Of a stretch of DNA of 64,000 nt, positions 24,781 through 64,000 are shown piece after piece. Made by a program: the position numbers and the translations under genes. The notes below the pieces were generated by a model. That model was not told where the DNA came from. It saw only the letters and a list, made by a program, of their open reading frames with translations, and ran no database searches. The DNA is taken from positions 4,162,905-4,226,904 of the forward strand of contig JAJEKV010000055.1 of assembly GCA_021234155.1 (NCBI GenBank). Reading direction: 5' to 3'. Every line of letters begins with the position of its first letter. The first letter of the stretch is position 1. This stretch comes from Isoetes taiwanensis (taxonomy: Eukaryota; Streptophyta; Lycopodiopsida; Isoetales; Isoetaceae).

Positions 24781-26349
24781 TCTTATATTATAATGTTGTG
24801 TAATGGACCACGCCCTAAAATAGACGGCCCAGATTTTGAGTTGAAATTTAACGGTTCAGATGTCTACGGGTTTCTTTTCTTCTTCTCGCTATATCGATTT
24901 AGGGCTTAAGGTTTTTCACCTTCTGACTAGCGATGGGCTTCTAGCAGCGCAGGGGCTTCTAGCAACGAGTTCTCTAGCCTTGGAAAGCGGCTCTTAGCCA
25001 TGATAAAAAATGACCGAATGAGGAGGAGTTTCAGATTTCTAATTTCTGAACTCTTCATCTGCGAATTAGCCCTTCTCAAAGAATATAGGTTTAGGGTTGC
25101 TGAATTCTTCATCTGCAATTTTTAGAGAGTATGTAGATGCTCCATTGCTTCATGACAGCGGAGATTCCAGACAAGAAAGCCCATTTCTGGAATTTGAGAA
25201 GCATCTGGATAGCTGCAACAGCTTATTTTGATTTGCTTTAATAACAAGTAGGCGATGTTCGGAAACGGATTTGATGCTCGGTTTTAGGGTTTATGGCCAG
25301 TGCAAAGAGGCAAAAAAGGGAAGCAGTAGTCAAGTGAGTCTAAAGTGGTCGAATTTCATTTGAGTGGCTGGATATGCATGAAGACCTAACCAGACAAATC
25401 GCCGAAGAAGGTAGATCCCTAACACCTCTGTTTATTATTTATTGTTATTTGGATGGGGCTGCACATGCAAAATGTAAGGATGCTGGAATATCCGAGACGA
25501 CGAGGATAAATGGGTTCGTTTCGTTGTAAAAAGAGGCAGCATGGTCATTCTTCCACCCAGAATGGTCCATTGTTTTACGGTCGATCCAAAACGAATACGT
25601 CTAGGACCGCTCCCTGGAGCTGCCTTGCACTGCTCTTGAAGCTTTTTAAATTTTTCTTCTTTCATTGTCTTCAGTGATGTCTTTTAGCTTCTTAACAGAG
25701 GGCAGCAATGGAATTAGTGTTGCAGTAGCATCATATAGCAATGGCTAATTTCTTGGGCTTTTTGGCCGGCCAGAAAACATTTGGCTCAAGCAGAGCATCC
25801 TAGAAAGCATCTACATGCTTCATTTCTTCTATTGAGCACTCGTTTCATTTGAGCTTGATGATTGCGTGTAAATTTTGTAAGGACCTAAAAGAAGTGCCAT
25901 ACTTTGCTCTAAAGCATTCACTTTTTAATAAACGTCTCGCAAATTTGATTCCCGAATTACGTGATTACGCTTTGCAAAAATCTAATAGTTTAATTGTGAG
26001 CGGGAGTGGGCTCGAGCAATTCCAAGATGTTGGGACACAAGGCTGGAGCAAATAGCTGGACATTATTGAGAATATAGTGATTCCTCCTTTTTAAGGTATT
26101 CCCGCACAACACAGAACCGATTCTTTAACAACACAGAACTCCCCGTTTCAGCAATATGAATAGCCGGATAGCCGAAGCATCGGCTACCTAAGCTCTCATC
26201 TGGGCATTCAGAACAACATATAGAATCGCGGAAGCATGATTCTGATTTTTTCAACAAAGAAAAACCCGCGTAGGGTCCATATTGAATCGCGGTTCCTCTC
26301 TCTCCTTTGCGTAAACTTGGTTCCTCTATTCTTCCCTGTTACTCTTGCC

Positions 26350-27391
26350 CACAGAGAACGAATAATTTGTTCGAATTGTGCATTTTGGGTGAAAAGCGTG
26401 ATCAAGCGAGCAATGCCACGTGATCTTACCATGTTAAATTGCATAAAAATGGCATATTTGGCATATTTGAATGTTATTTGAAGATGTAACCTTGAAGGAT
26501 TTATTTTTATAATAGTGGAAAATATGGGAAGCTAAGAAGAGCATATTTATTTAATCTAACGGTGGAGATTTATGGAAAACTAATGGTGGAGATCAAAAGC
26601 CCTATTTGAATTGAATTGAAAAGGCATAAGGCAAAAAAAAAAAAAGGTTACTGGTTGAACGAGCAGAGGAAGAGCCGAAAAGGAAAGGAGAGGGCCCAAT
26701 TCACCAGAGCGAAGGCATTGGAGAAGTCACGGATTTAGGGCGTGAGATCGGATCCCAAGAAGAGGCAAATCGTGATCATTTGGGAGTATACCCGGTCGGT
26801 GCTTGGGCAAGAGTTCCAAAACATATCGAGCATTCCTGATTCGAGGCGGACCATCATTTGGAGCAGAGCAGCATCCGAAGCCATATCCGACCAGATAAGG
26901 TACAGACATAGCAGATTTAGGGAGGCCGACCATTATTTTGTTAGAGAGCAGGAAAAGCAGAAGCATATCAGAGCAGAGCATTCCAGGGGAAGATCCGACC
27001 ACAACAGGAGGAGCGAGTCAGGTGCGAGAACATGTATGTAATCATGTCAAGATCTTCTGATACATTTCGTGGCTGTTTATTCATGCTCAGAGATAAGTCT
27101 ATCAAGTATTCTGCTATTCAATTTTTAAAACTATGAATGTGATTCTTATTGTCAAACTGCCTGTGATTATGTCTTGTTTATGAGATAAGTGCTATGGATA
27201 TTTGGTGTACTCAGATCTGAAACTATGGAATATAACTCTGGTTCATTATATATTACTTGTTATGAAATGTTTCCTGTGAATCTTTAAATCCTTATAGCTA
27301 TATATCTGGATACCAGGGTTCAATTCCCTGTGTATTGATAATGAATTATCTGCTGGCTATATTGTTCCTACACACACGAAAACCGTTTACA
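26350..27391 (+). repeat. 5' LTR of the Gypsy element
   Basis: About 1,040 bp, repeated at 35986-36993. It is followed by a likely primer-binding region. The 5-bp direct repeat TTGCC lies just outside. Confidence 0.85.
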
Positions 27392-27656
27392 TGTTTGGTG
27401 GCTTCGGACCAGGGCTTAGAGTGGCGAGATTATCTCATGCATAAACTTTGCATCCGGAAAGAACCGGAATGATTAATAATTATTATTTGCTTGTCTGTTG
27501 CTTGCATACTTGCTTCTGAATAAATTATGTTAAAAGATTGAAAGAGGGGAAAACTTCACTGGGAATAGAAAATGGGGATTGAAGCGCCATGCTAAACAGA
27601 AGAGCGAGAGTGCCACTGTTATAGATGGGACATGCCACCCATATAACCTGTGATGT

Positions 27657-29200: not shown

Positions 29201-29589
29201 GAAAACTCATGCCCTATCTATCAGATGCAATTGAATCCTAATAATCAGAGAAGGAGTAGACGTGTGAGATTCGAAAAGCCCGAATTTTTAGGATTAGGTG
29301 ACACCCAAGACACTCCCAAGGAGACTTTGCATGACACGCCCACATTTAAAGAACTTAAAGGCATTATGGATGCAGGAAACTCCTCTTTTCCAAATGAAGG
29401 AGTCCGAGAGCAACTTAGGAAACCAAGGAGTAGAAGGAAATACAAAATTAATTCTGAACTTTCTAAAGACACTATGATAATTGCCTGATTTAGGTTCTTT
29501 GAGCAAATGTTTTAGGGAACATTTGTTGTCTTTATGGAAACCTATTCAGCTCGGACTCATTAACCAAGTCCATCATATCTAATTCTATA

Positions 29590-31195
29590 AGGCCCTTTTT
29601 GCATTTGATAACCTTCCCTTTGCTCTATCCTGCATATCCTTTTTTCCTCATTTTCTTACACACTTTCTTTTTTTCCCTTTTCTTATTCTCTCTCTTTTCT
29701 TTTCTTTTCTTTTTTACCCTCTTCTCCCTCCTCTTTTCCTTCCTTTTCTCCTTCTCATTTTCCTTTCCTTTCCCTTTTCCCTTTTTTTTGGATTTTTCCT
29801 TTTTTTTTCATCTTTCTCCACCCTTCCCATTTTCTCATGCTCTTTTTTTATTTTCCTTTTCCCATTCCTTTTGCTTTTCTCTTTTCCCTTCCCTTTTCTC
29901 ATGCCCTTTTTGCATTCCCTTTTCCCCACCTTTTTTTTATGTTTTTCTTCCTCTCCTCACCTCTTCTTCTTTTATCTCATGTCTCTTTTCCCATTTTTCT
30001 TCTTCCTTTTTTTCTCACGCCTTTTTCCTTTCCTTCCCCCTTCCTAGCCTCCCTTTTTCTTTTTCCCTTTCCTTCTTTTTTTTTTATCATTTCCCCACCC
30101 TTTCCTCTTTTCCCGTGGCCTTTTCCTCTTTTCCTTCCCCCCTTCTAGTTTCTCTTTCCCTTTTGGAATTTCCCTTTCCCTTTTCCTTTTTTCTTTTTTC
30201 CATGTATTTTCCATTCTCTTTTTAGCCACTTTTTTTTTTACTTGCCTTTTCTTCCTTTCCTACCCTCTTCCCCTTTTCCCCATCCCCTATTCCCCTTTTT
30301 CTTTTTCTTTTTCCCTTTCCCCATGCTCTTTTAACCCTTTATTTTTACCCTTTCCTCACCCTTTCCCTCTTCCAGGGATTTATAATGCCCTTTTTTCCTT
30401 CCTCTTTTCCATTTTCCTCCTTATTCCTCGTGTTCTTTTTTTTCTTTCCCCTTTCCCTTTATGCCTCCCATTTCCTTTTTCCTTTTCCTTCTTTTTTTTT
30501 CATCCTTTTCTCTTTTTCCATAAGAAATATCTTTTAAGGGAGGCACCCTTTTTTTTTCCTTCTCTTTTCCTTTCCATTTCCCACACCTTTTTCCATTCCA
30601 TTTTTCCACCTTTTTCCTCCTTTTCCCACCCTCTTCCCCTTTTTCCCTTTTCCTTTTTCCTATTCCATGTTTTACGTTCTCTTTTGCTTTTAAGCTTTTC
30701 CCTTTTCCCTTTTCCATCTCTTTTTTCCTTTCTTTTTTTTTTCCTCAATATCTTTTCCTCTTCTGTGCCACTTTCTCCTTCCTCTCTCATTTCCCTCTCC
30801 CTTTTCCTTATGCCCTTTTCCCCTTTTTTTGAACCTTTTTTTTTTTTCCTTCCCTTTCTATTTTTCCATGCTCTTTTTTTCTCTCTCCATCATTCTTATC
30901 TTCCCTTTTTTTTCCTTGAAGAACTACTCTTTTTAAAGGTCTTCACCTTTTTCCCCGTTGCTCTATTTTTCTTCCTTTTCCTCCCTTCCCCTTTTCTTTT
31001 CCCTTATTAAATCCTCTTCCCCTTTCCCCCTTTTCCTTTTCATAGTGTCCTTTTTCCTTCCTTTTCTCCCTTTCTTTTTGCTTCCCTTTTTTTATGCTCT
31101 TTTTCCCTTTCCTTTTGAATTCTCAATCTTTCCCTTTTAACCCGTGCCTTTTTGCCTCTCACTTTTGCCTTTTCTCTTGCCATTTCCCTTTCCTC
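29590..31195 (+). repeat. 1.6 kb polypyrimidine tract between gag and pol of the Gypsy fossil
   Basis: The plus strand is almost entirely T and C, in short runs such as CCCTTTTCCC, broken at intervals by motifs like CATGCTCTTTTT, CATGCCCTTTTTGC and TATGCTCTTTTT. Their recurrence suggests decayed tandem amplification of a unit of tens of bases. The long open frames in it (for example 29599-30225, nearly all F, S, P and L) are compositional, not genes. Confidence 0.9.
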
Positions 31196-31339
31196 TTAGA
31201 GATGTTAGCATGGCCAATCATGGTAGTGGGAAGTTGATGATAAATCTAGTCCATGCCTTGAATGCAATCGCCATGATCTCAACTATTTAAATTAGGGTTT
31301 GATTCAAGACATACGCTAAAACTTTTATAATATAAGATG

Positions 31340-34300
31340 CCTACTTATGATATATTGGCTGATTTAGGTAATATCAGACCTACTATCACTTTTACCCAAT
31401 TATTGTCATTATCCCCTCCATGTAGAAAGGAAGTGGCTGCGGCTCTACGATTGCAAAAGGACGTATCTGTTAATTCCATATGGCCCTCTTTGTTTGATAT
31501 GAAATCGCCATCGTGCATGTTGTTATAGGGGATATAGGGCTGGAGATTATTGCTTGGATGTGATTGATGGCCGGATCTGGAGTTAACATTATGCCGAAGA
31601 AACTCTTCAAGATTAGACTTACCCCGCACCTTCTCCTGTCTATTTTAGAGTAAGGATGGCTGATCGGAGACGAGTAAAACCTTTGGGCATGATTACCGGT
31701 TTATAAAAACCATGATTGCAAAATCTTGTGTTCTATGTGGATTATGTAGTTCAAAGCTACCACCACAAATATGTTCTTATCCATTATTATTAGGGCCGAC
31801 CATGGTTGTTGGGGGCCAACAGCAATACGATTGGCATAGAGGAATTTTAGTTATTGGTGATGGAAATAATAGGGTGGAAATTAGAGTGAGTGAAATGCCA
31901 AAAATTTGCAAATTGAAGTAGAATCGATTCCAAAGGATTTATGATAGTGATAGTAGTGATGACGATTATAATGCGATAGTGCATATGTGAATGTAGCATC
32001 ATCTAGTGAGCCACAAGAGGATATGACCTTGAAAGAAGAAGGTGTGTACGAGTTAATGATGACGCGATTGTAGATCAACGGAGGATACAATTCTAAATTT
32101 CATGGGTGTTATAGATGTTAACCAAGTTGAAGTGGAGAAGGAATGTGAAGAAGAAGAAGAAGATATTAAACAAGATAAATATCCTGATTATTTCACAAAG
32201 TGCACAATTCAAGAGATCAAGGTGGAAAAGAAGCCCATGAAATTAGTCAATATGAAACCTTCTCACAACCTCCCAAGGTGCAAGAAATTAACCTCGGGAA
32301 AGGAGGAGAAGTAAAGACAATAAAGTTAGGGGCTAATATCACCGGGATTTGTATGACAATTGTGTTGCCTTATTTTCAAAATATCAGGATATTTTTGTGT
32401 GGTCATATGATGATTTGAAGGGCATTAACCCGGCCCTTATGTATGCATAAGATTGAGCTCCATGATAATGCTAAACTCAGAGTGCAAAAACCTTATAGAC
32501 TTAATCCTAAATTTGCCAAAGCGGTTAAGGAGGAGATTGATAAGTTGCTTAAGGTTGGCTTTATCTACCCTCAAGATTATAGTGAATGGGTATCACCTAT
32601 CGTGTGTGTTTATAAGAAAAATTTAAAAATACGTGTATGTGTTGATTATCGAAAAGCTTAATGATGCTACTCGAAAGACCATTTTCCTATTCCCTTCACC
32701 GCATGAAGTGTTAGATGTTTGAAGGGGTCAAGAGGTTTATTCATTTATGGATGGATTCTCGGGATATAACCAAGTATTGATTAGACCCGAAGATAGGAGA
32801 AGACAACATTTGTAACTATTTGGGGAACTTACGCTTATCGAAAGATGCCCTTTGGTTTATGTAACGCCCTCGCTACATTCCAAATGGTTATTACGCAAGC
32901 CTTCAAGGAGTTTGTGCAAGACTTTATGAAGGTATTCTTAGATGACTTTGCTTTGGTTTGGATCCTTGAGTTATCATTTGAGTAAGTTGGAGTTATGCTT
33001 TCAAGCGTTGTAGGGAATTTGGAATCTCCTTGAACCCTTAAAAATGTGCTTTTGTGGTTACACATGGTGTTTTGCTAGGTTTTGTTGTATCGATACATGG
33101 ACTTCACGATTGACCCACACAAAACTTCTAAAATCCTTTTGATTTGCAAAATTTATCCAACGAGTGTTAAAGAGTTGCAAGCTTTTTCTAGGGCACGTAG
33201 GGATATCATAGGCTTTATTGATCATTATGCACAACGAGCTTTGCCACTTACTAAGTTATTGCGAAAATCGAAGGAATATGATTGGAATGATGCATGTCAA
33301 AAAGCATTTGAAGAACTAAAATTAGCCTTAGTTAAATCACCTATTTTAAAGTCTCAGATTGGTCTAAAAGAATTCCATGTGTTGATTGATGCATCAAACT
33401 ATGCTATAGGTAGCATTTTATGTCAAAGGCTGATGAAAAAGAATATTGATCATCCCATATTCTATGCAAGCGGCAATTAACTAAAGCCGAAAGGTAACTA
33501 CTCTACTAACAAACGGAGGCACTTGGCATGATTTTTTCGATCCAAAAATTTAGGCATTATCTCCTTGCTAATGAATTTGCATTTGTTGTTGACCACCAAC
33601 CTTTGAAGTATTTGATCAACAAGCCTTGCCGCCTGAAGGGAAGGATTGCTTTCGTTGGTTGTTGTTAGCATGAATTCAAGTTCAATTGTTGTACGAAATG
33701 GGAAGATACATTCAAAAAAACCGATCATTTGTCAAAATTTCGGGACCAAAAGAAGAAGGAGATATTCAGTTGTTTGCGGATGAAGTACTTTTTTCTCAGA
33801 GAAGTCAGACCCAATGGTATGAATCTATTGCATCCTTATTTATCTACAGGGAATTTCGGAAGGTATGAGTGTTGTTGGTAAAAAGCGATTAATAATTCAA
33901 TCAAAGCCATATACACTTGTTTGCGGGTCAATTATATAAATTAGGTCATGATGATGTGTTGAGACGATGCATAATGCCACATGAAATTAGAGCGTGTTTG
34001 CAATCATGTCATGATGGACCTAGTGGTGGGCATTTCTCTATAGATACTACTATTAAGAAAATTCTTCAAAATTTGGATTATGGTGGCCTAAATTGCATCC
34101 TTGATGTTAGGGAGTATATTAGACATTGTGATGTATGTCAAAGGGTGGGGAAGCCTTCTACCGGAGACGTTATGCCTTTACATCCAATAATGCCTATTTT
34201 GCCTTTTGAAAAATGGGGAATGATTTTGTAGGACCAATCAAGCCATCCGCTATGCATCTTGGTAATAAATATATTTTGGTTTTATGCTGACTATGTTACC

Positions 34301-34900
34301 AAGTGGGTGGAAGCACGCGATTTAGAGAAGACGGCTAATAATGTGGCTATATTCTTGTACGAAAATATCATAACTGCGTTTTGGCTGCCTTTGGAATTGG
34401 TCAGCGATAGAGGTAAGCATTTCCTTAATGATACTATTGAAGCTTTAACTAATAGATATGGGGTGAAACATAGAAAGACAACTCCATATCATCCACGCTA
34501 AGAACGCCGTGGTGCGCACAAATAAAACCCTATGTACCATAATTACCAAAATTTGTAATGCCAACCGCATTTGATTGGGATAAACGCCTTTTTGATGCAT
34601 TGTGGGCCTATCGATTACACATAAAGTTACAACAAATGCTACACCTTTTAAATTAGTATATGGGCAAGAAGCTATAGTTCCTATTGAGTTAGAACTCCCA
34701 TCCTTGAGAATTGCTATTGAACATAAATTAGATCGATGGTAGTTTGCAAAGCAAGATTAGCACAATTAGAAGCTCTTGATGAAAGCGCACTATATGCTTA
34801 TATATCACGGGAAGCAATTCAACAACGCCGCAAAGCATGGTATGATCGACATCGAAACAATAAACACCGATAAAGGTAACTTAGTTCTACTTTATGATAG
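31340..34900 (+). pseudogene. pol region of the Gypsy fossil
   Basis: Parts in order: a protease-like DGGSGVNIMP stretch near 31570, reverse transcriptase (about 32440-33070), RNase H (about 33080-33700), the HHCC zinc-binding segment of integrase (about 34010-34150) and the integrase core (about 34190-34900). RNase H before integrase marks Ty3/Gypsy rather than Copia. The region is broken. Confidence 0.85.
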
Positions 34901-35985
34901 TAAGCATTGGAAGAAACCGTAAACTTCGGGATGTAAAGGTCCTTATATTGTTAAAGAAATATACGATAATGGATCTCAGATTACTAAAAGATTTTGCAGA
35001 AATGAGCTTCCCACACGAAAGTGAATCCGTATGAGACTTAAAGTGTATCATATGCGAACAACTAGCGACCATTCTTCAAATAAGGTGTAGTATTCATCGG
35101 GACGATGAATAAATAAAAAGGGGGGTAGTACTATATTTGAAAAAAAAATAAAAAAATAAAGAAGAAATAACAAATCATTTTTCCCCCGATAATCCATCGC
35201 TTTTGTCTTCCATTGCTATATCAAATTCATCTCATTTTCTATTCTCTCGCTTCACATCAATCCATTAAGACTGCCAATCACCTCCGCATCAAGGCAGCAT
35301 CTTGTTGTTAACTATTTTTGTTTCCATTGACAGGTGCATTTGCTTTTTCTCCATCAGAATCAATCCATTTCATTGTACACTCATCCACCCCATTCAATAC
35401 ATCAAAAGTTCCGCCATATAAGCTTTTACCACCAGCAATTATTGTACTAATTTTTGATATTATTACCATGACGGGTCATCCGCTTTTCTCCGTGATTATT
35501 CAATTCATTCATCTACACTCATTCATATCCTTCAACTCATAAAGTCTTTGTCGGCTTCACCATCTTAGCAGCCATATGTTCTACTAACGTTGTTTTCGCT
35601 GCAGGAGCATCCTTTTTTCTATCATTTCCTATTCATCTGTTTTTTAGTTAGCCTACCAACCATGACCACTGTTTCTTTACCATTGTTTTTCCATTTCCCA
35701 TATTGCTGGCCATTTTCCCATCCCAGCAAGTCCGTGTAGTAAAAGAGTCCAATAAACAAATAATCCAAAAGGTAGAAGGAAGAGTGGGGGGATGGAGCGC
35801 CATCTTGAGGATTGCAAAGAGAGAGAGTCCCGACCTGATGGGATTTTGCCACCCTTGGAAGTATTTTATATTCTATGAAACCATAGAATCGCCGATGGAG
35901 GCAATGGTTTGGAAGAAAATATTTTGATCATGAAGAACTATTTTGAAGAACTCGTCGGACGCCGAAGTTTTTGTAAGGGGAATAA

Positions 35986-36993
35986 TGTAGAACGAATAAT
36001 TTGTTGAAATTGCATTTTGGGTGAAAACGATCAAGCGAGCAATGCCACGTGATCTTACCATGTTAAATTGCATAAAATGGCATATTTGGCATATTTGAAT
36101 GTTATTTGAAGATGTAACCTTTGAAGGATTTATTTTTATAATAGTGGAAAATATGGGAAGCTAAGAAGAGCATATTTATTTAATCTAACGGGGGAGATTT
36201 ATGGAAAAACTAATGGTGGAGATCAAAAGCCCTATTTCAATTGAAAAGGCATAAGGCAAAAAAAAAGGGTTACGGTTGAACGAGCGGAGGAAGAGCCGAC
36301 CCGAGGAAAGGAGAGGGCCCCACAGAGACGAAGGCATTGGAGTAAAGTCACGATTTAGGCAGGAGATCGGATCCCAAGAAGAGGCAAATCGTGATCATTT
36401 GGGAGTATACGGATCGGTGCTTGGCAAGAGTTCCAAACATATCGAGCATTAGGATTCCCGAGCGTACCATCATTTGGAGCGAGCAAAGATCCGAAGCCAT
36501 ATCCCACCGGATAAGGTACGACATAGCAGATTTAGGGAGGCCACCATTATTCTCGTTAGAGAGCGTGAAAAGCGTAGCATATGAAAGAGCATTCCGGGGA
36601 AGATCCGACCACAACAGAGGAGCAGAGCAAGCGCGTAAGAACATGTTGCGAATCATGTCGAAGATCTTACATTACATTTCGTGGTCTGTTTATTCATGCT
36701 TTCAGAGATAAGTCTATCAAGTATTCGCTATTCAATTTTAAAACTATGAATGTGATTCTTATTGTCCAACCGCCTGATTATGTCTTGTTTATGAGATAAG
36801 TGCTATGGATATTTGGTGTACCGGATCCGAAACTATGGAATATAACTCGTTCATTATATATTACTTGTTATGAAATGTTTCACAGAATCTTTAAATCCTT
36901 ATAGCTATATATCGGATACCGGGGTTCAATTCCACAATATTGATAATGAATTATTCACTGGCTATATTGTTCCTACACACACGAAAAACCGCA
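35986..36993 (+). repeat. 3' LTR of the Gypsy element
   Basis: Starts TGTAGAACG after a purine-rich AAGGGGAATAA tract, matches the 5' LTR along its whole length and ends CA before TTGCC. About 900 bp of non-coding sequence separates it from pol. Confidence 0.85.
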
Positions 36994-39109
36994 TTGCCAT
37001 CCTCAGATCTATCCTTTGCCTCTTGCTACCCATGAAAAGTAATTCGTAGCCCCGAGTTGTTTAGAGATACCTTGATCAAATTCCATGCTTCTCTGTGGGG
37101 AAAGTTTACTTGAGTGCATGCAAACCAATCTATACAATTATTGTTCATTTCTTCTTGCTCACATCACTTTTGGCATGTTTTTATGTTTGCATGGTGTGCG
37201 ATTCTAAGGATCTGGGAAACACTTAGACCAGATCTCCCTTTATCGGCGTTACCGATCGCGGAGGATTGCAAAGCAGTAAGATTTATATGCAGCTTCTTTA
37301 GTTGGCATGCTGTCCATTTTCTACAAAATAATTGTGCTTCTGCCACCCATACAACGTGTGTGTTTCAAATTTTTGATATGGGTCGCTTTGCTATTGCCAT
37401 GCAAATGAGACTTATTAGACCTTACCGCTTTTCGAACCATGTCGATGCATGCACACTATCTTAACGAATAAATATTAAGATATAGCAAGGTATGGCGATT
37501 AACAATCTACCGTGAAAGACTCTCTCGAATGCAAGCATAATAAAAATACAAACATGGAACGATGTGGTCGAGTAAAGAAGTTGAAATAGACCTCATTTTT
37601 TAGAACATGGTTAAAGAAAAATATGTGCTTTGACATTGTCAACGATTTGCCATATTTTATAATGAGTTTTGCATATGCTTATGTGCAATAGAAATTTCTA
37701 AATGTCAACATTAATGCTTACATGTATTTATACGTAGAATTCAAGGGTGTCAATTTGTTTTCCAAATAAGTGGATTGAAGCTATCGAATCCCATTGCCGA
37801 ACTAAGCATGAAATATGCTAGAAGCGAGGAACATTTTCAATGAATTGAGCCTACAAGACTTGAAAATGGAGCACTTGCATCAATTAATTTGTGTTTGGTT
37901 GCCTTCGTGCAAAATTGATTTTATGGTCCAATCTTACAAAATTGCATCTATCAAATATGAATCAGAAAGTATCATGAAAAAGCAAGTTCTATAGATATAA
38001 AACCTAAATTGCAAATCAAACACACAATCGTTATATTAGAAAATGCTCTTTTCTTCTCTCTAATCATCTACATGAACCCAAACTATGCAACAAATTATTA
38101 AAGCTAACATCATTCCTAAAGTATTATTAAAGGAAGGAAGGAACGAACCCAATCGGGTTATGGGACCGAATTAAACAAAGGGGCATAAGCCCTAACAGAT
38201 CGTGAGAGGGTCAAGCCCAAAAGTAGAACATGGGGTCCAAGCCCGCTTCAACACGTAAATAACCAAACCGTAATCCAAAACAAAAGAAATACAGAGCTAT
38301 ACAAGAAGTGCCCATGGATCGATGGCCACCGATCTCAATGATAGCTTGACTCCTCCCTATAAACACTTCACTTCAGGGGCGCAGCCTCTCGCATTTCCCA
38401 CGCAACTCTTCTTTCCGCCTACGAGCCGTGCCGAGTCAAGTCTTCCTGATCGAGAAGGTGGTTCCTTTCAAAATGGCTGCCATGTCGCAGATGCACCGGA
38501 AAGAGCATCTTGAAAGCGCACCAAGAGGTGACGAGGACGGCCGATCAAGATCGCTCCAACCCGCCGGGCCGAGACAATACCATGTGCTTGGATATGCATC
38601 ACCGGGTAAAAAACGGTGCGGGCCTCATCTGTAGCAAGAGAATCACCGCGTCTCCGAATACCCACAATACGTAGGTTCAAGTATGCATCCTCGTGCAAAG
38701 TATGTGTGGATCCTCGTACGCTGTCATCATCTTTAGGCATATCATTCACATGGTCGGGCCCAGTATGCGGGATCCATGTACTCGCTATCAGCCTCGTGCA
38801 TATCATTCACATGCTCGGGGCGCATTGTGCTAGACACCTCGAAGGCGAGTACTATGATCTACCTCATCGTGGCCCACGATTGTAGCAACAACTCTAGAAG
38901 CCGCACCCGTGACTTTGTAAGGGTAACCGAAAGCGCATTCTTTGCTATGACAAAGGATGGGAGAGCATACCGCCTGTGAGGCCGGGGCTAGGATATCCGG
39001 ATGCGTGAAGTTCATCCGAAAGCATCAAGCCTATCTAGCGCCGCATTCGTGGACGATCGAACCGGGTTGTGGATCCGGGCGACGAATAGGGACCCAAAAA
39101 GGAAGGGGA
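36994..39109. other. Right arm of Helitron C, unassigned
   Basis: 37000-37340 has normal CAG/CTG content, while 37400-38060 and 38500-39100 have very little. 38300-39060 is more GC-rich than its surroundings and contains a near-repeat, CATATCATTCACATG, at about 38738 and 38798. It could be a captured host fragment, but I recognise no protein. Confidence 0.35.
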
Positions 39110-39284
39110 AGCTAACATCATTCCTAAAAAGTTCACATAGGCGTATCTATATTTGTTGCCCAAACATTGCCTAGCAATTTGGGCATGGTTTCTTAAAGCT
39201 AACATCATTCCTAAAGTTCACATAGGCGCATCTATATTTGTTGCCCAAACATTGCCTAGCAACGTTGGGCATGGTTTCTTCTAA
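39110..39284. repeat. ~87-bp tandem duplication with an internal palindrome
   Basis: Two units start AGCTAACATCATTCCTAAA and contain GCCCAAACATTGCCTAGCAA followed by TTTGGGC or CGTTGGGC, an imperfect hairpin. A partial third start occurs near 38099. The hairpin lies 250 bp before the Helitron C terminus and resembles a Helitron end hairpin. Confidence 0.8.
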
Positions 39285-39531
39285 GCTATAACGATATCGA
39301 ATGTAAGATCCAAGTATCAAATACTACGCAAATTGAACAGAGTTATGCATATTTAAATAACCTATAATATCAAGCAGGAATGCCTCACTTTTACATATGC
39401 ACAATAACAAATTACAATTACAAAAATAAGAACTATAAAGCGAGCATATTTTGGGCACGATTTTTCGCATTATGACAAAAACATTTAAGATTCTCAACTT
39501 ATGCCCAAAGAACGCCAAGCACCATTACTAG

Positions 39532-40107
39532 TCTTAAAGAAGTGGTCTTGATATAAATCTAAGTTAATGGGATTTGGATCTGATGAGGGGCATCTACAAT
39601 GGTAGGAAAGAAGAAAGGGGTCGCTGCTAGATTGAAGGCTTCACATCCCTCTATGACTAGTATCCACTGCATTGCTCATCGTACAAATTTGATCGCAAGT
39701 GGATGCGAATGGGCCGGATATGAAATGGATAGAAGATATTGAAACTATGGTCAATTCTATTGCTTCTCATTTCCTCGCAGCAGCCTTAAGGTTAGAAAAA
39801 GTTGCAAGAATTATTGAATGTTTACTCGTGTGCAGCTTTAAGATTGAAGGGATTCAAGAAACACGTTGGTTGAGGCAGGCATAGTGCCATTGCTAAGCTA
39901 TGTGAGGATTTGCCCAATGCTAGAATATTCAAGGGTGGAAAATCATGATATATTTGAAAAAGCTTGCTGATTTGAAGATGATCTACCCCACGCACTTTTT
40001 GGCGGACAATCTTGGAGGTCTCACAATATTAAGCAAAATGTTTTAAGCTCGTGGTGTTGATATAACTGTTATAGTAGGGCATATTACAAACAAGTATTAA
40101 ATTTATT
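39532..40107 (+). pseudogene. hAT-like gene, block 3 of 4
   Basis: It resumes directly after Helitron C with KLMGFGSDGASTMVGKKKG, then AARLKASHPSMTSIHCIAHR, the catalytic-core region of hAT transposases (GFGSDGAS, HC-AHR). It ends at the 9-bp target duplication (40099-40107) of the Mutator-like element. Frame changes are present. Confidence 0.8.
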
Positions 40108-43100
40108 CATTAGGGCGGATTTGGGGGTCTCAAATGGCCCATAACTTGATGCTAGAATTTAATGCCATGTTTCGCGACCAATGATGTTTATGATTTTTTC
40201 CAAAGTCGATAGTTGGCAAGTAGAAAGAGGAGCAGGCTTACTTGGCATCCACATGGCGAAATTTCATAGGACATGTTTGTGCATTCATTGCAACCACATT
40301 AATGGCCCGGTTTTTTCGAAAAATCGTATCACTGACCAAAATAATGGCTATTTTTTTTCATCAGTACACATGCCCATGCACCACTAAACCAAATTTTATC
40401 AAATTTTGGCACCAAGATTTCCATTGTTCACATTACCGCTTTACGCATCCTTCTCCGCTTTCACTCTTCATTTGGAATCAAGTCTCCAATAGTGTCTCAA
40501 GTTTTTTTGTGGGGCTTAGCATAGAGTTAAGCAACAACAACGCGAGGCGATGTCGGACAAGCAAACGATCGCTACATGCCATGTTTTTACTTCACCCAAT
40601 TTTTTTCATTCTCAAGTTTTCCTACTTTTCACTCTTTTTTCATTCATTGATGTTCTCGCCATTCATTCTTACAATTCAACGAATCGACCAGATCTCTAAT
40701 TGCATCCATCATTGCTCTAGTATTCTACATTGCTTCTTCAGCTCATCACTTACAAAACAATAAAGGCATGATTTGGAAGGATATCTATCCATAGGCTCGT
40801 GGGTGAGAATGCTATCCTTAACGAAGGGTGACTATGGAGTTACATCACGGAGCTTACATTCATACACAATGAATAGGTAGAACTATAGGGTTCAAAATAA
40901 ATGCTATGGATAGTATATGGCAAAAAAAAAAAAAGGGGGGGGAGGATTTGAAGAGGAGGATATTTGCAAATTTGCATGGATCACACCATGCTTTGAAAAT
41001 GCATATGCACTTTGTAAAATGTAGTGAGATTTCGCCATGTGATCCTTTTTGGTTTTTTTTCTTCCCTCTTCTTGATTTATATTCACTCACCGAATCAAAT
41101 TTTTCTTTTGGGCTATTTATCGATGTGGGGGATTTGAGACTAGGGAAAAGCATTATACTTAGCATCGTTGTTGTCTAACATATGGACATAAGAGACATGC
41201 TTTTCCAAGATATACATTTAGGGCAATGGGCATCTAGTTTTACGCTTGTAAAGTGTCACATATGGAAACATTGTTAGGTTTGATAAAATAACATAAAAAT
41301 CTTATTTAATAAAGCTTTGGTTGTTGGTAAAGTGTTGGCTTATTGATTAAGTGTTTGTATTTTGCTTTGGGGCCCTTTTGAAAAAGTTTAGTTCATAAAA
41401 CATAATATAACTTGAAATGATACATATTTTATATGCAAATGGGAGACTATTGATGAGGACTTGGTGTTATTATCTATTGACAACAAACAAGAAAGTGGAT
41501 CACACCATGCGAATTTAGTTTATTCCAACCTTTTTAGCTTATACAAAATTCGCTTGGTGTGATCTTTTGGAAAAAGATGACTTCCTATAGTAAAATTACT
41601 TTGGTTATCTTTTAATAAAAGAAATATATATGTGTCTTATTTGAAGTTAAGTGTATGTGACGGCTCATTTATTGATAAAGTGTTTGCTTTTGAAAAGGGC
41701 TAATAACTTTATGTACTACTAGAGTTGGTAAAGTATTTTAGATGCAAAATAGGAAGGGTACTTGTGTTTAAGTTTAATTTGACAACAAGCAAGAAAGCCG
41801 TATCACACCACGTGAAAATGATTGTGTTTCTATTTTTTTTTGCATATGTATTATTCGGCTGATGTGATCTTTCTTAAAAAAAAAAGATATGCTCTTTGAA
41901 AAGGACTAATAACTTTATGCACTTGGGGTGGTAAAGCATTAAATGAGAAGGGGTACTTGTGTTTAATTTTAATTTGACAACAAATAAGAAAGTGGATCAC
42001 ACGATCGCTAATTTAGTGTGTTCCATTTTGTTGCATATGTACTATTCGGTTTGGTGTGATCCTTCTTGAAAAAGAATATGCTCTTGAAAAGGATAATGAC
42101 TTATGTAATTAAGGGTGGTAAAGCATTCTAAATACAAATAGGAATGAGTGTTTAATTTTAATTTGACAACAAATAAGAAAGTGGATCACACCACGCTAAT
42201 TTAGTAGGTCCCTTTTTTGTTGCATATGTATTATTCGCTTGGTATGATCCATCTTGAAAAAAAAAATAGCTTTCAAGTAAAAGAAAAGAAAGAAATATCT
42301 TATTTAAAGTGTAAAGTGTTAGTATGTAAAGTGTTGGTTTATTAAAAAAGGTGTTTGCTATTTGAAATAGGCTTAGAACTTCACATGCAAATGGGAGGCT
42401 ATTGAATGGGTACTTGTGTTTATAATTTAACAAAGAAAACAAGAAAGTAGGTCACGCATACACGATTTGTTATGTTCCATCTTAATGTTATGTTATACAA
42501 AAATAACATTAAAATATGTTTTAAAAAGTATAAGTAAAATACTATTTGTTTACGCTTAAGTTGTAAGTTCAATATTTATGTTTCTATTTACTTTTTTTTA
42601 AAAAGGATCACACCAGCGAATTTCTTATATGCAATTACTTCACGATGAAGATTTCGCATCATATGATCCTCTTTAAAACAAAGATGGCTTTGACCTTCAA
42701 TGTTCATAAATTTTATGAATGTTTGCATATAAGAATGTCACATATCATATTTTCTTAAAAAATGGTCATCAAATGGATAAGTAGTCAAAGAGTTCTTCTA
42801 CTACTTAAAGAGTTTGAAGACTCATTTTGCTATAATTTAAATAGCAATAGATTTTTTAAAGGTATCTCATAGAAAAGTAGTCAAAGACTTCTTTGTATTA
42901 GAGGTATCTAAACACAAACACCATAACCTTTGTACTTCAAGAATGTATAAACCCTTTGCATTGCAAAGTATAATGTCATTTATTAGCATCTTCATGGACA
43001 TTTTCCCTTCCTTAAAGAGGTACTTCTTTGATCGATGCTATTCCAGTGATCTCCTCCTCTTCTATTCTACAACACAATAAGTTATTTTGCATAGCTATTA

Positions 43101-43747
43101 ATCATATCTCCATTCTCATATATCTAAGAGGGACTATTTTTCCTCCAAAAAGATATGCCCCTTTTCGGTTGCTTCTATGAAAAAGCTACCTTGATGCTTA
43201 TGGGATTTCTCCATGCCTTGTTCACTTCATAATTGTCCCATTTCTAACAAAACCAAGTGCATGCGCCTCGAGGTGCATGCACCTATAGTATATGCATGTA
43301 ATCGAAAAGCATCCATATGAGCTTAAATGATTTTGTTAGGGGCTTCCACAAACCTCTTTGCATCTTGTTCTTTGAGATGTATTCGCTATATATATGGGAA
43401 CAAGTCCTGATAGAGCATCTCAAGCTTGTTTCATTCTCAATGAGGAATGGATATCATCATCGCCCTCCTTTCAACATCAACCATCACTTTTTTATATTCA
43501 AATTCCTTTGCCTCGTGAATGTCAATAAGCCATCATTATTAGTCGAGTCGCATGGTTTAATGCCATAAATATTTTTTATTTGTTTCTAATATGTGAAAAT
43601 GGGACAATAAATGCGCAATCTCTCGAAATCCGTGCGAATCTATAACTATGAAGGGTAGGTAAACTACATGGCATTGGGGAGAAGAATCGAATTGACGTGG
43701 AATGGCTCTTACGAGGCCATTTTGAGACCCCAAATCCGCCCTAATGC
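40108..43747. mobile_element. Non-autonomous Mutator-like element (MULE)
   Basis: Inverted ends of about 33 bp, CATTAGGGCGGATTTGGGG-TCTCAAA-ATGGCC (left 40108, right 43746 reversed), with three differences. Flanks are AAATTTATT (40099-40107) and AAACTTATT (43748-43756), a 9-bp duplication with one mismatch, as expected for Mutator. No transposase is seen in 3.6 kb. The interior holds an array of palindromes. It interrupts the hAT-like gene between blocks 3 and 4. Confidence 0.75.
40978..42671. repeat. Array of six ~70-bp hairpins inside the MULE
   Basis: Units at about 40978-41045, 41498-41565, 41797-41871, 41994-42062, 42183-42250 and 42605-42671 have left arms like GGATCACACCA-GCGAAT and right arms like ATTCGCTTGGTGTGATCC, so each can fold on itself. 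Units 3-5 are separated by about 190 bp of similar sequence (GACAACAA-AAGAAAG, TTGAAAAGG-TAAT). A weak seventh left arm lies near 42450. Confidence 0.8.
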
Positions 43748-44556
43748 AAACTTATTACATTGCTGAGCCTGAGTCAGATTTGAATGCAAGTCAACATGAT
43801 TCAAAGGGTTATCCCATAGTTCCTGATTATGGTCCTCCAGGTGGCTGGCTAGCGGCCTTAAGAACTTCCATACGTGGAGATGAGTATAGAACCTTCAAAC
43901 TATCAAGGCAAATTGATGGGACAGATTTGGAAGTTGCCTTAACACATCAAAAGGCATATGCAAAGGCTGTTTGTGAGTGTTTGCAAGTCAGATTTGAAGA
44001 CACATCAATAATAAAGAATTTTAATATTCTATCTCCCTTACTTATATCAGGGGCTAGTAGACCAAGAGAATTTGGTGACGATGGTTTAGAAGAATTAATT
44101 ACCTTTTATGGAACACCAAAGAAAGTCAAGGGATCCGAGGAGAAGACCTCGCCTTTAATTGTTGCGGATGTGTTAAGGGCTGAGTATGCAGATTATAAAA
44201 TCCATACTTTAGTAATTGACAGCATAAGAGCATGGAAGATGTTTGTGCTATGATCGCTTCAAACCAAATAATTGAGGTACGTTTCAAAAACATCCTGACG
44301 TTGCTTCAAATTTCTTTAGTTCAATGTGCTAGCAATGCAATTTGTAAAAGCATATTCAACCATAAAACTAACATCGAAACAAGAGGACGTCCATTGATGG
44401 GAGTAGAGAGTTTAATGCAAGTCTTTCCATTGTTGTAAATGGACCTGGTAAAGCAAGAGACTTGCTTCACGAAGAGTAAAGAATTGTGGAAAAAGAAGGT
44501 TGATAATCGAGGTCGCCTTATATATAGTGGTGAGCCGCTACTTGTAGGCTTCTGAT
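43748..44556 (+). pseudogene. hAT-like gene, block 4 of 4 (C-terminal)
   Basis: The open frame 43744-44253 has LSRQIDGTDLEVALTHQK, FNILSPL and FGDDGLEELITFYG, the helical insertion region of hAT proteins. In another frame follow SMEDVCAMI, FKNILTLLQISLVQCASNA and STIKLTSKQ, which match the C-terminal dimerisation domain (F-NLL-L--I-L--P-SSA-CER-FS) with the catalytic-Glu neighbourhood decayed. It ends near GPGKARDLLHEE. As read, the gene is a relic of a hAT transposase or a domesticated relative. Confidence 0.75.
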
Positions 44557-45373
44557 AGTATTGTAACATCCTGAAATTTTGCTATGTTTCTTCTATGAAA
44601 ATATGGAGGAAGAATATGCTTTTAGCTATAAAAAGACAGATATCTAGTGGGCTATCTATGTACTACCCACACAATTTTGTACCTTATGTATCTTTTAATA
44701 ACAGACTTGTTTTGTTTTATTAGTGGTCTAAAAGATGTATTTTGACAATATCATAATGTTTAGATACCTTCTAAGTCTGATTGAATCAGCAAATTTCTGA
44801 GGATTCTCGACAAATAGTAGGATTTACCGAAAAGAAAATGAAAAAATCCGATAATCATATATTGAAGAAGGCATTTTTGCTGGGGAAGTAATTTCCCAAT
44901 TTCGACCCTAGGTCCAAGTCCACACTGGGCGGGCGTATTGACCGAGCTTAACCCGCATAGTATTGACGTTCGAGTACCTGGTGCCTCTGCAGCGGGCCTG
45001 AGAGTTGCGGCTTCCCAACGGGCTGGAAATTCTAGATTCAGGACAGAGTCAGCATATTTTCAGCTCCATCAGCGCCACCATCGAGCATATCATCATGCAT
45101 CGAAGCTTCTCCTAGATTGCATACACATTTAAAAATCTATACATTCTTTGAAAACTGGGCGAATAATTCCTGTTTAATTTCATATCTTAACTTTGAAACA
45201 TATATCATTTTTCATTCAATAATTTCCACAGCTCTAAAACATAGAATAACCCTCTCTTCCTCTTCCTCTTCCTCTTCTTCCTCTTCCTCTTCCTCTTCCT
45301 CTTCCTCACTGCTCTAGTCTTCCCCCTTCATCTTCTCCACATAACCTCATATCTCGATGTGCAGATACAGTCC
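44557..45373. other. Intergenic region with a (TCTTCC)n microsatellite
   Basis: 45252-45307 is a TCTTCC/CTTCCT array of about nine units with one slip, lying about 65-120 bp beyond the stop codon of the ABCC gene, possibly in its 3' untranslated region. No other feature is seen. Confidence 0.7.
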
Positions 45374-46430
45374 CTAAATATCAAGGGATTTGTAATAATT
45401 ATAAATGTCAAGAAAGAAGTCATGTACATGAGGTATGTACTCTGATGAAATCATAACAGCTGCTAGCTGCTTGTTATGCTTGACTGAGAATTCGCCCCAA
45501 TATTCTGCAACAAGTTTGGAAAATAAAGATGTCTTTGACTGCAAAAGCTTAGTTGGTTGGTCAAACTCGACCGCTAGACCTGAATGAATAAATAATGGTT
45601 TTCAGTGAGTAGTTCAGAAATTTGTTAACAGCAGCATCACTTACCATCTCTCAAAGTTAACACCATATCACTGTCAATTACTGTTGGTATACGATGAGCA
45701 ACAGTGATCACTGTACACTCTGAAAATTCTTCTCTCAACACCTTCTGAAGGACTGCATCAGTAGTGTTATCAATTGATGCAGTTGCCTCATCTAAAACAA
45801 GTATGCGGCTGTGTTTTAAAAGGACACGCCCTAAGCAGAACAATTGCCTTTGTCCCACACTCCAATTTTCACCATCATCTCCAACTGCATCCGCAACTTA
45901 TCACGATTAGAGAATAAATAGTATAACCTACATCATCAAAGGCATGAAGCATTTTTACCATAAGCATTGAGTTGCTCTTCCTTTCCTCGAACAATATCAG
46001 CTAATTGGCATCTTTGCAAAGCCTGCATAAAAGATGTCATATTTTAATAACAATGCATACAAGACAGCAAAGAATCAAAATACATTATCACAATAAAACA
46101 ATGTTATTGAAATCATTTACCACACACCTCCCAAATCTCTCCGTCTGAATGTTGACACAAAGGATCAACGTTATACCGAACAGTTCCACCTAATACTGGA
46201 TCCTGAGGAATTATGCTGAGTCTAGAACGTAAATCATGAAGTCCAATTGTAGTAATATCAAGACCATCAATCAGTATACTTCCACCAACTGGTTCAACCA
46301 GACGAAAAAGTGCAGCTATCAAAGTTGACTTGCCACTTCCAGTTCGCCCCACAACCCCGATCCTTTGGCCTCCCTCAAATACACATGTGATTCCATGGAG
46401 GACTAATGGTGAACCTGGCTGATACCGTAC
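45374..46430 (-). other. NBD2 and C-terminus of the ABCC gene (intact exons)
   Basis: Four exons with consistent phases: 46430-46128 (Walker A and [11 protein letters not shown]), 46022-45959 ([11 protein letters not shown]), 45884-45645 (signature, Walker B, switch His of TVITVAHR) and 45579-45374 ([10 protein letters not shown] to the stop). One residue is short after IIPQDP ([10 protein letters not shown]) compared with the usual six-residue stretch. The last exon is longer than usual, ending [13 protein letters not shown]. Confidence 0.9.
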
Positions 46431-49400
46431 CTGTTCTACCAACAAACAATTTTGAAATTATAGAAGACCAATTAAGGCACATAATTCTATATGCATTAAC
46501 ATAGAAATGATACTAACCTGCAAGTTCCATAGTTCCACCTTTCCTTTCAGTGGCCAATGCAAGGGAGGTCTCTTCTCATCAACTATGGCCGGTGCTTCAC
46601 GAGGCAATTGCATATATTGCTTAATTCTTTCAACTGATATAATATTGTTGGCCAAGATACACTGGTTTTGTATACTGAAAACCATCGAAAGATTTAAAGA
46701 AAGACCATAGCTGATGGCCAGTCCAACAAATCCTACAAAGCAATTGCAATATTGTTAGATGAAACTTAACTTCCCAACATCGGTTACCATCCAAAATTAC
46801 CAGGATCAATTGAGCCAGCTGGAAGCGAGACCATTAAGAGAGCAGAAGAACAAACTATCATAGCAGCAAGTGCTTCAAGACGTTGAACAAGCCATTCACT
46901 GGCTGCAAAGCTATGAAAAAATGGACTGGAATTCGCGCATCCACTAGATGTAATGCACGACCCATGAAACGATCTTCCATTCCGAAGGCCCGAATTGTAG
47001 CAGCACCCGATACAGCTTCACCAAAAAAATTCACAATTGGTGATTTTGTTGTGCCATTTAGCCTCATTAATTCCCGCGCAGATGATAGGTAAAAAAGCTG
47101 ACAATGGATAAGCAAGTAAGCAATCTCAACCAACCTTGACAACAAATTCCTTTCTAAGGAAGCCATCATCTATTATAACTTTACATTTTATACACCCATG
47201 CCCAAAATAATGGCCATAGAATTTTCCATAATTGAGCTCCTTTTAGTGGTTGCTCTAGGGACATCAATGAATATTTAAGATAGGAAACCATTTACCACGT
47301 TGTTAGCTATTTCAATTGCTGCTTTTCATCTTAATGTTGAGTAACCCACAAGAAAATGTTTATTGGAATGTTCTGCTAAGGACTTTAAGGAGAAACATTG
47401 ATTTGGCTTTGGTATGGCAGCTGCTGAAAGCAGAAAGGGGCTGCCATGAAAAATTGAGATGAGAGCTAGTATTAAATGATGCTCGTACTGGAAAGGATCC
47501 TGAAAGAAACTTATAAGACGAAGTTGTGAATTTTTATGTTGTTGCAGCCTAATGGAGAACCGCTGTAAGTGATGGAGAAGGTGTGGAATTTTAGTTCAAC
47601 CACCATTAGTCTCTCAGTTCTCTTTGGGCCTTTTGAAGGTTATATGTATTACAAAGCACTTCAGGAGAGAGAAGATCATGCCACTCTTTAAGGAGTTGGT
47701 ATATAAACAAACCTGCAATTTCCTGTTTATGAATATTGTTGGAAGAATCACCACTAGGATTGGCCATGTGACTGCTGTTGTCACCCCAAGGTTCGTCAGT
47801 GCATTCAATGATGCCGCAATTGAAAAGATGAAGTTAAAAGGAACATCAATATCAACGATACTGAGATCCACAGATAGCTGTCCAAAAACAAAAAAAACAT
47901 GCTATACCATCCAGTCAAATTTAGTAATGTGCTGTAATTTTAGCATATAGGACTTACTCGACTTAGTATCCCACCAGTTGGAGTAGAATCAAAAACTCAT
48001 AGGGCATGAAATAAAGAACTTAGAGTCTCCAAAAAAATGATTTTGAAGCAGCAAGGCCCGTGAAGCACAGTAAAAATCGCGACGGACTAGGAGCATGGAT
48101 GCAGAGCCCATTCCAACTATTGCATACACTTCAATTAAGTAAGTTGTGCTTGTAGCTGGATTTGCAATCTCAGCTGCCAACCACCAATTTGACACTAGCT
48201 GTCCCGCAAGAAATATAATCTGGCTCAAGACTGCTAAACTCCCATATAAAAATCCATGTGCCTGCCTCTAAATAATCAAGATAGGGCTTTGCTCCTGTAT
48301 CTCCCACTTCTGTTTCCTCCTCCTTGTCAACTGTTCAGCATCTGGTGCAAGAACTAGCTCCCTATGAGAAGCCTTGCTACTGAGCTTTCTTAATAGACCC
48401 CCAATATTACCAGATTTAACTTCCACTCTGGCTGGTTCCCTTTAGTGTTCCCATCACATCATTATGCGATCTACGAAGTTCTTCAAATCTACTACCTTCC
48501 ATCAAAAGCTGATTGTACTTTCCAGCTTGATGAATTTCTCCATCTTGCATTAACTGCAAGCTTCTTGAAAATGTTAGATGATGTGCTTCAAACGTGAAAG
48601 ATATCCTAACATGTAAATGAGTTTTGATCTTACCAAAATAATATCAAAAGCTGGCAGAAACTCCACTTGGTGGGTCACCAGAATTATAGTCTTCTTTAGA
48701 CAACATTCCCATGATACAGTTCTGTAATACCAGTGCCTAATTAAACATGCTTCTAATCATGCAAAAACGATCATCTAAATGTTAACAGGGCACCTTGAAA
48801 AGGGCAGCGGCAGTATGAGCATCAACAGCACTGAATGGATCATCGAGAAGATAAATGTCGGCATCCTGATATATGGCACGAAGCTAACTGAATACGCTGT
48901 TTCTGGCCTCCACCATGTTGAGCCCCTTTCCCCTATTTCAGTAAGATCACGGCACGGAAAACTTTCAAGATCCTTATCAAGTGTGCATGCCTTTAATGTG
49001 TTATTGTATCGAATTTTGTCCATTGGCAATCCAAATAGTATATTGTCCCTGATAGTCCCACATTCAATCCATGCTATTTGTGCAACATAGGCAACTCTAC
49101 CACACAGTTTAATCTGATAGAAACATCAAAATGAGTTGCTCAAATACATTTTGAACTTGTACAGATACAATAAAGATGCACGTACCGCCCATTTAATTTT
49201 TGGCACCTCCCTAGAACAGAAAGAAGAAGTGTTGACTTTCCAGAACCGACTTCTCCACACACTGCAAACTTTCACCATGCTTGACTTTAAGATTTATATT
49301 CCTGATGGTAGGTTTAACAGCTTTAGGATCCCAACTAAGAATCCATTTTTAATTTCAAGTGCAAAATCAAAAATTTCCACTTGAGTTCCTACAAACTGCA

Positions 49401-51134
49401 TCCTTATCCAATTCATCTTCCTCGAGAAACCTGCAAAATACGAACAACGAAACTTTAACCTGAACTACAACTGCAATAAGATCTGAACTGTACCTAATAG
49501 GATCCTGATAATGCGAATGTTGCAAGTGCAGTAAATACGCTACTTGCAGTCAGTGGGATTCCCATTAGCCAGCAAGCAACAAAGTTGATGTTGCCACGCA
49601 ACAGGAGAGAACCAAAATATCAAAGAATTTAATGACTTCCTAAACTGCACTCCAGATAGCCACTTCAGCTCAACTTTAATACGAAGATTATCTATTGATG
49701 TCTTGAAATGGTCCTCCCATGCTTGTAATTTTAGAACTTTCATGCTTTTGAGGGCCTCTGATGTAGCCCTTAGTCTTTCATCCTGAGCTCCATAAGTCCA
49801 CTCTGATACCCTCTGCTGCAACCTTGCTAATGGGGAGTTAAGAAGTACAGCAAGGATGATTACAGACAAGCCAGCCAATGTTGCCCAGCCTACAGATATA
49901 AAGAGAATGCACAGGGCCAAAAATATTTGTAAAGGAGTTGTCCACAAGAGATGTATCCAGTAAGGAAATTCACCAATTCGGTATGCATCAACTGCCATAT
50001 AATTGAGGATCTCCCTGCTGCATGTGACTGCCTTCCAACATTTGATAGCTTCAGCTCCTTCTCGCATACACAGCTGCAATTATTATTATGAACGCATTTG
50101 CATACCTACTCTTCTTACTGCCAAAGTACCACTGCCTTTATGATAAGGACTCCACCATCTTTGCTAAAAACAGTGCAGCCACAAGAACAAGGCCTTCACA
50201 TTTAAAAAGCAGCTTCCCATTGGCACATTTTACAAATCTATTTAAAATAAGCGCCCAGCGGACACCGTTGTACACTTCAGCAATGCACATGTACCGCTAA
50301 AGCCAAGGCTTTTCCAATAGCAAGATGCTAAAGCCCAAAATACAGAATGTTTGGAGGTAGTAGTTTTCTGGTTGTTCCACGCCATCGTAAATGAAACATG
50401 CGCTGTCTCAGCCAAATCAGGTCCTGCAAGTCTAGGCAAATCTGATAACTTCAAGGGCTTCTTGAACCTTGTGTCAGAAGGGGATTAAGCCACATAAATG
50501 TCATGCATTAAAAATTCCCGCATGTGCAAATGGGGTTATGTTAACACTAGAAACATCATGGGTGCCCAAAAAGGGTTCAGAGAGAGTAGTGTCTGGAATA
50601 ACATTCTGTTTCTTAAAACCAAAGAATAGGAACAAACCACAGAGAGGCCAGCTCAGAAGTATAAGGCACCCTTCAATAGAGAAGAACCCATATAAGATCA
50701 GGTTGATTAAGGTTAATGTAACCTGACATGTGCAAAACGCGAACATTGATATCCACCATATTTGTGTAATTCTTTGAAGAACTTTAGTTGCATTGATAGT
50801 TAGAGTTAAGGGTGTGACCATCCAGGCTAAGCCTTGGACTGTATAGGCCACAATCTCAACTATATGAGTGTTGGACCAATTGCCAGGCCTCCAATGCCCT
50901 AGGGAGAATCCGACCAGAACGAAGTATCCCACACATGCTCCTAAAAGCGCAACAATGATATGCTGAGGAGGCCTATTGTTGAAGATCCTGTTTATTGCAT
51001 TTGATCTTCTTTTGTGCTGTAAGAAGTGACAAGAATGCCACAATGAGGACTATATATGTCCCTGACATTAATGCACGCATGACACAGGTTGCTCTGCATA
51101 GGGCCCCGTCCTCTAGGCTTCCACAAAACTTCAT
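45374..51134 (-). CDS. ABCC (MRP)-type ABC transporter gene, ABCC10/ABCC14-like
   Basis: ATP-driven exporter family of plant membranes, often vacuolar. From an ATG at 51134 the order is TMD0 (51134-50500), TMD1 (about 50490-49540, with [16 protein letters not shown]), NBD1 (Walker [10 protein letters not shown] near 49230, GERG-GGQKQR near 48930, Walker [14 protein letters not shown]), TMD2 (48260-46520) and NBD2 (Walker [10 protein letters not shown], signature WSVGQRQ, Walker [13 protein letters not shown]). Exons I can place: 49113-48794, 47877-47713, 47097-46801, 46732-46518, 46430-46128, 46022-45959, 45884-45645, 45579-45374; introns mostly 65-105 bp with GT-AG. The LSIVD, NGTTKS and [13 protein letters not shown] blocks point to ABCC10/14. 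NBD2 exons read through cleanly; upstream about ten frame shifts or stops occur, some at CTG/CAG sites. Either a young pseudogene or a real gene with base-calling errors. Confidence 0.85.
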
Positions 51135-63990: not shown

Positions 63991-64000
63991 ACAAGCCAAG

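Follow-up and report, generated by a model that had tools for sequence, protein, structure and literature searches.

The window analysed here is a stretch of 64,000 nucleotides of the Isoetes taiwanensis assembly (contig C1062:4162905-4226904; the assembly comprises 1,658,258,908 bases in 1110 contigs). It contains a gene stretch, an AT-rich repeat and an insertion of about 10.65 kb, and part of it recurs on a second contig, C1078. A search of the window against Rfam gave no matches at gathering scores. Throughout, CAG and CTG were counted together as CWG, and the expectations come from a first-order Markov model with 2000 simulations. The features to which we refer are the following, none of them assigned to a strand.

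24836..25578: little-altered stretch adjoining the following one; of the 27 CWG in the C1078 copy, 22 are kept; 14 mismatches and 5 gap openings at 96.9% identity
25619..26340: second stretch of probable miscalls, beyond the 10.6-kb insertion; 14 of the 35 CWG of the C1078 copy are kept
36994..39058: best-resolved part of the probable miscalls; 12 of the 69 CWG of the C1078 copy are kept (a figure that depends on the aligner settings used there), with long identical runs between the sites
36994..44048: collinear stretch, inverted relative to C1078 6,077,704-6,084,803; 93.05% identity, 203 mismatches, 208 gap openings
41101..42600: extreme core, with a single CWG where 24.9 would be expected; lies in an AT-rich, high-copy repeat that contains sub-repeats
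45000..51000: gene stretch serving as composition control, labelled ABCC in a preliminary description of this DNA; 205 CWG against 199 expected

The region 36994-43700 harbored 41 CWG against 153.1 expected, and none of the 2000 simulations gave a count as low. CWG was the lowest of the 32 strand-paired trinucleotides in this region (observed/expected 0.27), and CCG stood at 0.88 of expectation. The preliminary description had reported a single CTG and no CAG in 41101-42600, where tens would be expected, and our recount was identical (0 of 2000 simulations as low). The neighboring intervals that it had called nearly empty contained 1 CWG against 13.3 (37400-38060) and 5 against 18.0 (38500-39100). 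Its remaining low intervals were low as well, with 1 against 7.6 at 32440-32820, 7 against 15.4 at 53250-53900 and 8 against 22.6 at 62950-64000; these three are repeated sequence, judged here by CWG counts. The two segments described as normal were found to be nearer normal at 37000-37340 (7 against 10.6) and normal, in composition only, over the gene stretch. The end of the window, 62900-64000, is a very high-copy repeat with 1065 candidates; 40 were scored, and the other copies among them are 84-91% identical. CWG loss is moderate here, and CCG/CGG is raised at 63001-64000.

To place these values in the genome, a random sample of 20 loci of 10 kb each was placed by hand at round coordinates on five contigs. 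Five of the loci, including the sole one on C942, were wholly masked and another was half masked, which left 145 windows of 1 kb. In this sample, CWG observed/expected had a median of 0.63 and a 5th percentile of 0.29, and here too CWG was the lowest of the 32 strand-paired trinucleotides (0.67). Of the sample's composition figures we rely on the trinucleotide ratios, since masked N entered its base composition and dinucleotide ratios. The seven windows of 36994-43700 ranged from 0.06 to 0.41, the two core ones lying below all 145 random windows. With a sample median of 0.63, the region stands at the lower end of a depletion that runs through the genome. The depletion announced in the preliminary description is thus sharp, but it is regional only in degree.

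Pieces of C1078 within 6.066-6.086 Mb match 24.8-26.3 and 37-54 kb of the window in inverted order, a synteny that rests on the compared pieces. The C1078 region is without the 10.65-kb insertion and could be either a duplicated segment or a second haplotype that was retained. For 47000-48500, part of the gene stretch, the search table gives 98% identity with the C1078 copy. By eye, the alignment of 36994-44048 consists of long identical runs, and many of the differences fall on a CAG or CTG of the C1078 copy. The alignable near-identical sequence amounts to 8.6 kb, in which the C1078 copy has 190 CWG. The window keeps 69 of them, reads a deamination-like form at 10 and shows other forms at 111 (CGG, C-G, ACG or indels), 58 of these 111 involving indels. 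In the reverse direction, C1078 keeps 69 of the 92 CWG of the window, with other forms at 18 and deamination-like ones at 5. The alterations followed recurrent rules, which from the C1078 copy to the window read TCTG to TCG, CAG to CGG or C-G, and CCTG to CACG; TCTGA became TCGA five times, TCAGT became TCGGT four times and TCTGT became TCGT three times. A CG absent from the C1078 copy appeared at 66 of the 121 altered CWG sites. The corresponding figure for other altered trinucleotides was 174 of 1028, a set many members of which must overlap with the CWG events.

We then classified the 283 difference events between the two copies. Ninety-seven fell at CWG that C1078 alone has, 22 at CWG shared by both copies and 10 at CWG that the window alone has. 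Differences touching a CWG of C1078 thus make up 42% (119/283), although CWG neighborhoods cover 18.5% of the bases. Homopolymer-length indels, the other error class seen alongside, account for 43 events. The remaining 111 involve neither CWG nor homopolymers; some, such as CAT to CGT, resemble errors at other cytosines, and part may be real divergence.

Two causes had been put forward in the preliminary description, namely, systematic long-read miscalls at methylated CHG, to which it leaned, and decay of methylated sites. Deamination of methylated sites in plant repeats would deplete CWG in such sequence, and its products would be C-to-T changes without indels. A true decay would have converted methylated CAG and CTG to TAG, CAA, TTG and CTA over a long time in silenced repeats. 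The 10 deamination-like sites among the 121 would fit such a history, as would the 896 occurrences of GCTTGG, the C-to-T form of GCCTGG, in the arm motif of the core repeat and the fact that CWG is the CHG context for which, in the part of the study available to us, CMT3 alone is needed in Arabidopsis and Physcomitrella (PMC5221884). However, the other 111 altered sites have different forms, and the 58 with indels are at odds with a process that predicts none. In the core, CTA/TAG and CAA/TTG stood at 0.95 and 1.00, and over 36994-43700 they were slightly raised, at 1.13 and 1.02; the suggested check for an excess of these trinucleotides in the core therefore turned out in favor of miscalls over decay. 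Moreover, CG is not lost alongside CWG, since the two observed/expected ratios gave a rho of -0.38 over the 145 random windows and of -0.26 over the 64 kb of the window, and rRNA units are altered similarly (see below). Decay is therefore very improbable as the cause, and for the aligned part it is contradicted by the sequence comparison.

Further copies were found at other loci (L002 to L007). Within a shared stretch of 657 bases, L003, L004 and L005 kept 17, 16 and 16 of the 18 CWG of L002, and the window kept 5. Trinucleotides away from CWG were kept to 0.978, 0.948 and 0.905 in L003, L004 and L005, respectively, and to 0.940 in the window. The window shares ATGCAAATGAG with L006, where L002 to L005 have ATGCAGCGAG, and L006 is another depleted locus, with CWG observed/expected ratios of 0.52 and 0.36. 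When the window was compared with L002, the kept fraction was 0.36 for CAG and 0.37 for CTG, and the next lowest was CCG with 0.52 (n = 23), a value that includes neighbors of altered CWG. With CCG as the next least-kept trinucleotide, the effect extends beyond CWG, and other methylated contexts may suffer as well. A study of four angiosperms states, in the part available, that methylation of CCG in heterochromatin is 20-50% lower (PMC5221884). The 10.65 kb at 26341-36993 are missing at the matching joint in L002, L003, L004, L005 and L007, where about 8 bases separate the flanks corresponding to 26340 and 36994. This insertion is probably a mobile element; inside it, 32400-33400 is high-copy (234 candidates, 40 scored).

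As an outside yardstick we took the rRNA genes, which are under strong constraint, so that letters altered in them are likelier to be errors than mutations. The 5S sample was a 4-kb piece of one tandem array with 11 units (L042, C13:286000-290000). In these units, CCCATCAGAAC was intact in five and read CCCATCGAAC in six, and TACTGGG was intact in three and replaced by TCTTGGG or TCTTTGGG in eight. The site ATACCAGC was intact in six units and the fourth CTG site, GTGCTGCACC, in eight, the latter being a point against the miscall explanation. Neighboring units of the array range from intact to carrying many alterations. For 5.8S, we inspected 6 of the 40 genes listed, the best-scoring one (L044) and five lower-scoring ones. 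GCAGCG was found only in L044; L043 and L046 read GCAAAT, L045 GCCGCG, L047 GCAATG and L048 another string. Similarly, L043 and L046 have GCGTAA where the other four have GCAGAA. The change from GCAGCG to GCAAAT recurs in the window, L006, L043 and L046. Some of the altered rRNA units may individually be pseudogenes.

The position of the indels at CWG might also be taken to reflect a real mutational process that cuts symmetrically methylated CHG on both strands and leaves small indels. Such a process would have to leave the sequence between the sites intact and spare near-identical neighbors, and it would have to strike 5S and 5.8S genes and yield one and the same string at separate loci. We regard it as extremely improbable.

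Overall, we consider it highly likely that the CWG loss reflects systematic nanopore miscalls at CWG that were probably CHG methylated, left in place where Illumina polishing failed. Miscalls are favored over decay because 111 of the 121 altered CWG are not deamination products and 58 of these carry indels, and because the core shows no excess of TAG/CTA or CAA/TTG and rRNA genes are altered likewise. The leaning of the preliminary description is thereby supported as far as the miscalls are concerned, and the methylation itself is our deduction. In agreement with a miscalled motif, the differences concentrate at CWG (121 of 190 altered), the motif is present elsewhere in the assembly, with L003 to L005 agreeing with L002 at 16 to 17 of 18 CWG and intact 5S units standing beside altered ones, and homopolymer-length errors occur alongside. 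The explanation is supported, on sequence comparison, where a CWG-bearing copy could be compared, that is, in 24.8-26.3 kb, 37-41 kb and part of 43 kb. Much of the CAG/CTG loss thus seems to be a sequencing artefact of an older nanopore base-caller and not biology.

The available part of the genome paper describes R9.4.1 pores, base-calling with Guppy 3.1 flip-flop, assembly with miniasm and racon, polishing with pilon and Illumina reads, and gap filling with LR_Gapcloser (PMC8566536). On this basis we propose the following course of events. The affected cytosines would be methylated in the CHG context by a CMT3-type methylase. A caller trained without native plant DNA would have known methyl-cytosine mainly before G, and for this reason it would have tended to write CG at methylated CWG. 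Consensus polishing with the same reads would have preserved the error, and pilon polishing with Illumina reads would have mended the genes and some other copies but not the repeats or gap-filled stretches. The outcome would be a CWG-poor text into which false CG and spurious indels had been introduced outside genes.

A nanopore error that depends on sequence context without methylation, left behind by patchy polishing, would look like methylation-driven miscalls. The homopolymer indels indeed point to poorly polished sequence, and the units within a single tandem 5S array are not all in the same state, which would suit this reading as well. However, we know of no such nanopore error at unmethylated CWG. 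Moreover, in the part of the report available, the case on record that shares this motif core involves Dcm methylation (PMC6591954). We therefore think an error of pure sequence context quite unlikely.

The core repeat calls for a separate judgment. The C1078 copy of 41100-42700 is itself poor in CWG, with 5 against 29.3 expected. Since both copies are poor (1 and 5), part of the core depletion may be real and miscalling may not be its whole cause; either both copies were miscalled alike or the repeat family may be truly CWG-poor. Sub-repeats lie about 190-300 bases apart in this stretch, with arms like ATTCGCNTGGTGTGATCC. Genome-wide pattern counts of the palindrome-arm forms gave 1339 for GCATGGTGTGATCC, 896 for GCTTGGTGTGATCC and 174 for GCCTGGTGTGATCC, and the forms recur at similar spacings among the matches listed. 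This suggests that they are different genuine sub-repeats, and our case for miscalls leaves them aside; the earlier argument that indel variation among the arms favors miscalls is thus weak.

A mixed cause, compatible with the miscall explanation, would confine the miscalls to 25.6-26.3 and 37-41 kb and leave the core at 41.1-42.7 kb truly CWG-poor by its family sequence. This would agree with the low counts in both core copies against the 25-29 expected, with the 1339 and 896 occurrences of arm variants devoid of CWG, and with the 92-97% identity of the full-length core copies among the 40 scored of 1321 candidates. On the other hand, wrong strings recur at separate loci and the family is high-copy, hence hard to polish, so that two core copies could be wrong alike; gap columns (37) also outnumber mismatches (18) between them. 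We give this mixed cause a little less than an even chance. It is unlikely, in our view, that the core family is truly without CAG/CTG and free of a deamination signature because copies lacking CMT3 targets escaped CHG silencing and spread, the surrounding miscalls being a separate artefact that marks CHG-methylated copies.

The plants used for the assembly were grown under water, and contamination was reported, according to the available text (PMC8566536). A plastid control, in which an rbcL stretch of contig C1052 was compared with C840 as the host plastid (89.5% identity), was dropped, as the comparison is probably one between organisms. Contig C840 (34.5 kb; L035, L036) carries by eye a plastid set of frames with a non-land-plant look, which we take to be ndhC-K-J, atpE-atpB, rbcL, accD, cemA, petA, a tufA-like frame and ribosomal proteins. 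With its tufA-like frame it presumably represents a green-algal plastid, for which reason the control was discarded, and C840 is probably an algal contaminant remaining in the assembly. C1052 harbors open rbcL (512 codons) and atpB frames at 5.40-5.42 Mb (L037, L038) inside an 11.4-Mb contig, and these would represent a nuclear plastid insertion or a misassembly.

The CWG loss is mostly not a real biological feature, and it is useful as a warning about the assembly. Outside genes, spurious CG dinucleotides and indels and an inflated divergence could mislead studies of the Isoetes assembly that count CHG sites, measure repeat divergence, date insertions, or tally pseudogenes or rRNA variants. 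The same hazard perhaps exists for further plant assemblies that relied on base-callers of the same period. Conversely, the error pattern may offer an inexpensive trace of CHG methylation in plants that lack a methylome.

In the titles and abstract openings that we found, no CWG footprint in plant assemblies is described, which is not proof that it is unpublished, and the word CHG is absent from the text of the Isoetes taiwanensis genome paper (PMC8566536). A loss of accuracy on native plant DNA is known: in their available parts, Ferguson et al. 2022 (PMC9749173) and a review in J Exp Bot 2020 (PMC7501810) state, as we would for Isoetes, that plant methylation on which a caller is untrained lowers accuracy. 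Unlike our analysis, neither names a CWG footprint or a CG-writing pattern in those parts, in which the former has no match for CHG or CAG and the latter a single one for CHG, as a methylation context. Deamination decay in plant repeats differs from the present case in predicting C-to-T changes only, compared to 10 of 121 sites in the window. The closest known system is the Dcm case of Wick, Judd, and Holt (2019), where, in the part available, about 70% of the consensus errors of a Klebsiella genome lay in Dcm motifs with the then-current default ONT models (PMC6591954). Unlike that case, Isoetes presents a plant nuclear genome, sites that are CAG/CTG at large rather than CCWGG, a pattern that varies patchily from locus to locus although the assembly was polished and published, and a methylation that is presumed. 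Nevertheless, the available account of the Dcm case has the same elements, with errors at a 5-methylcytosine motif of the methylated CWG type (CCAGG/CCTGG), an accompanying homopolymer class and default models untrained on the modification (PMC6591954).
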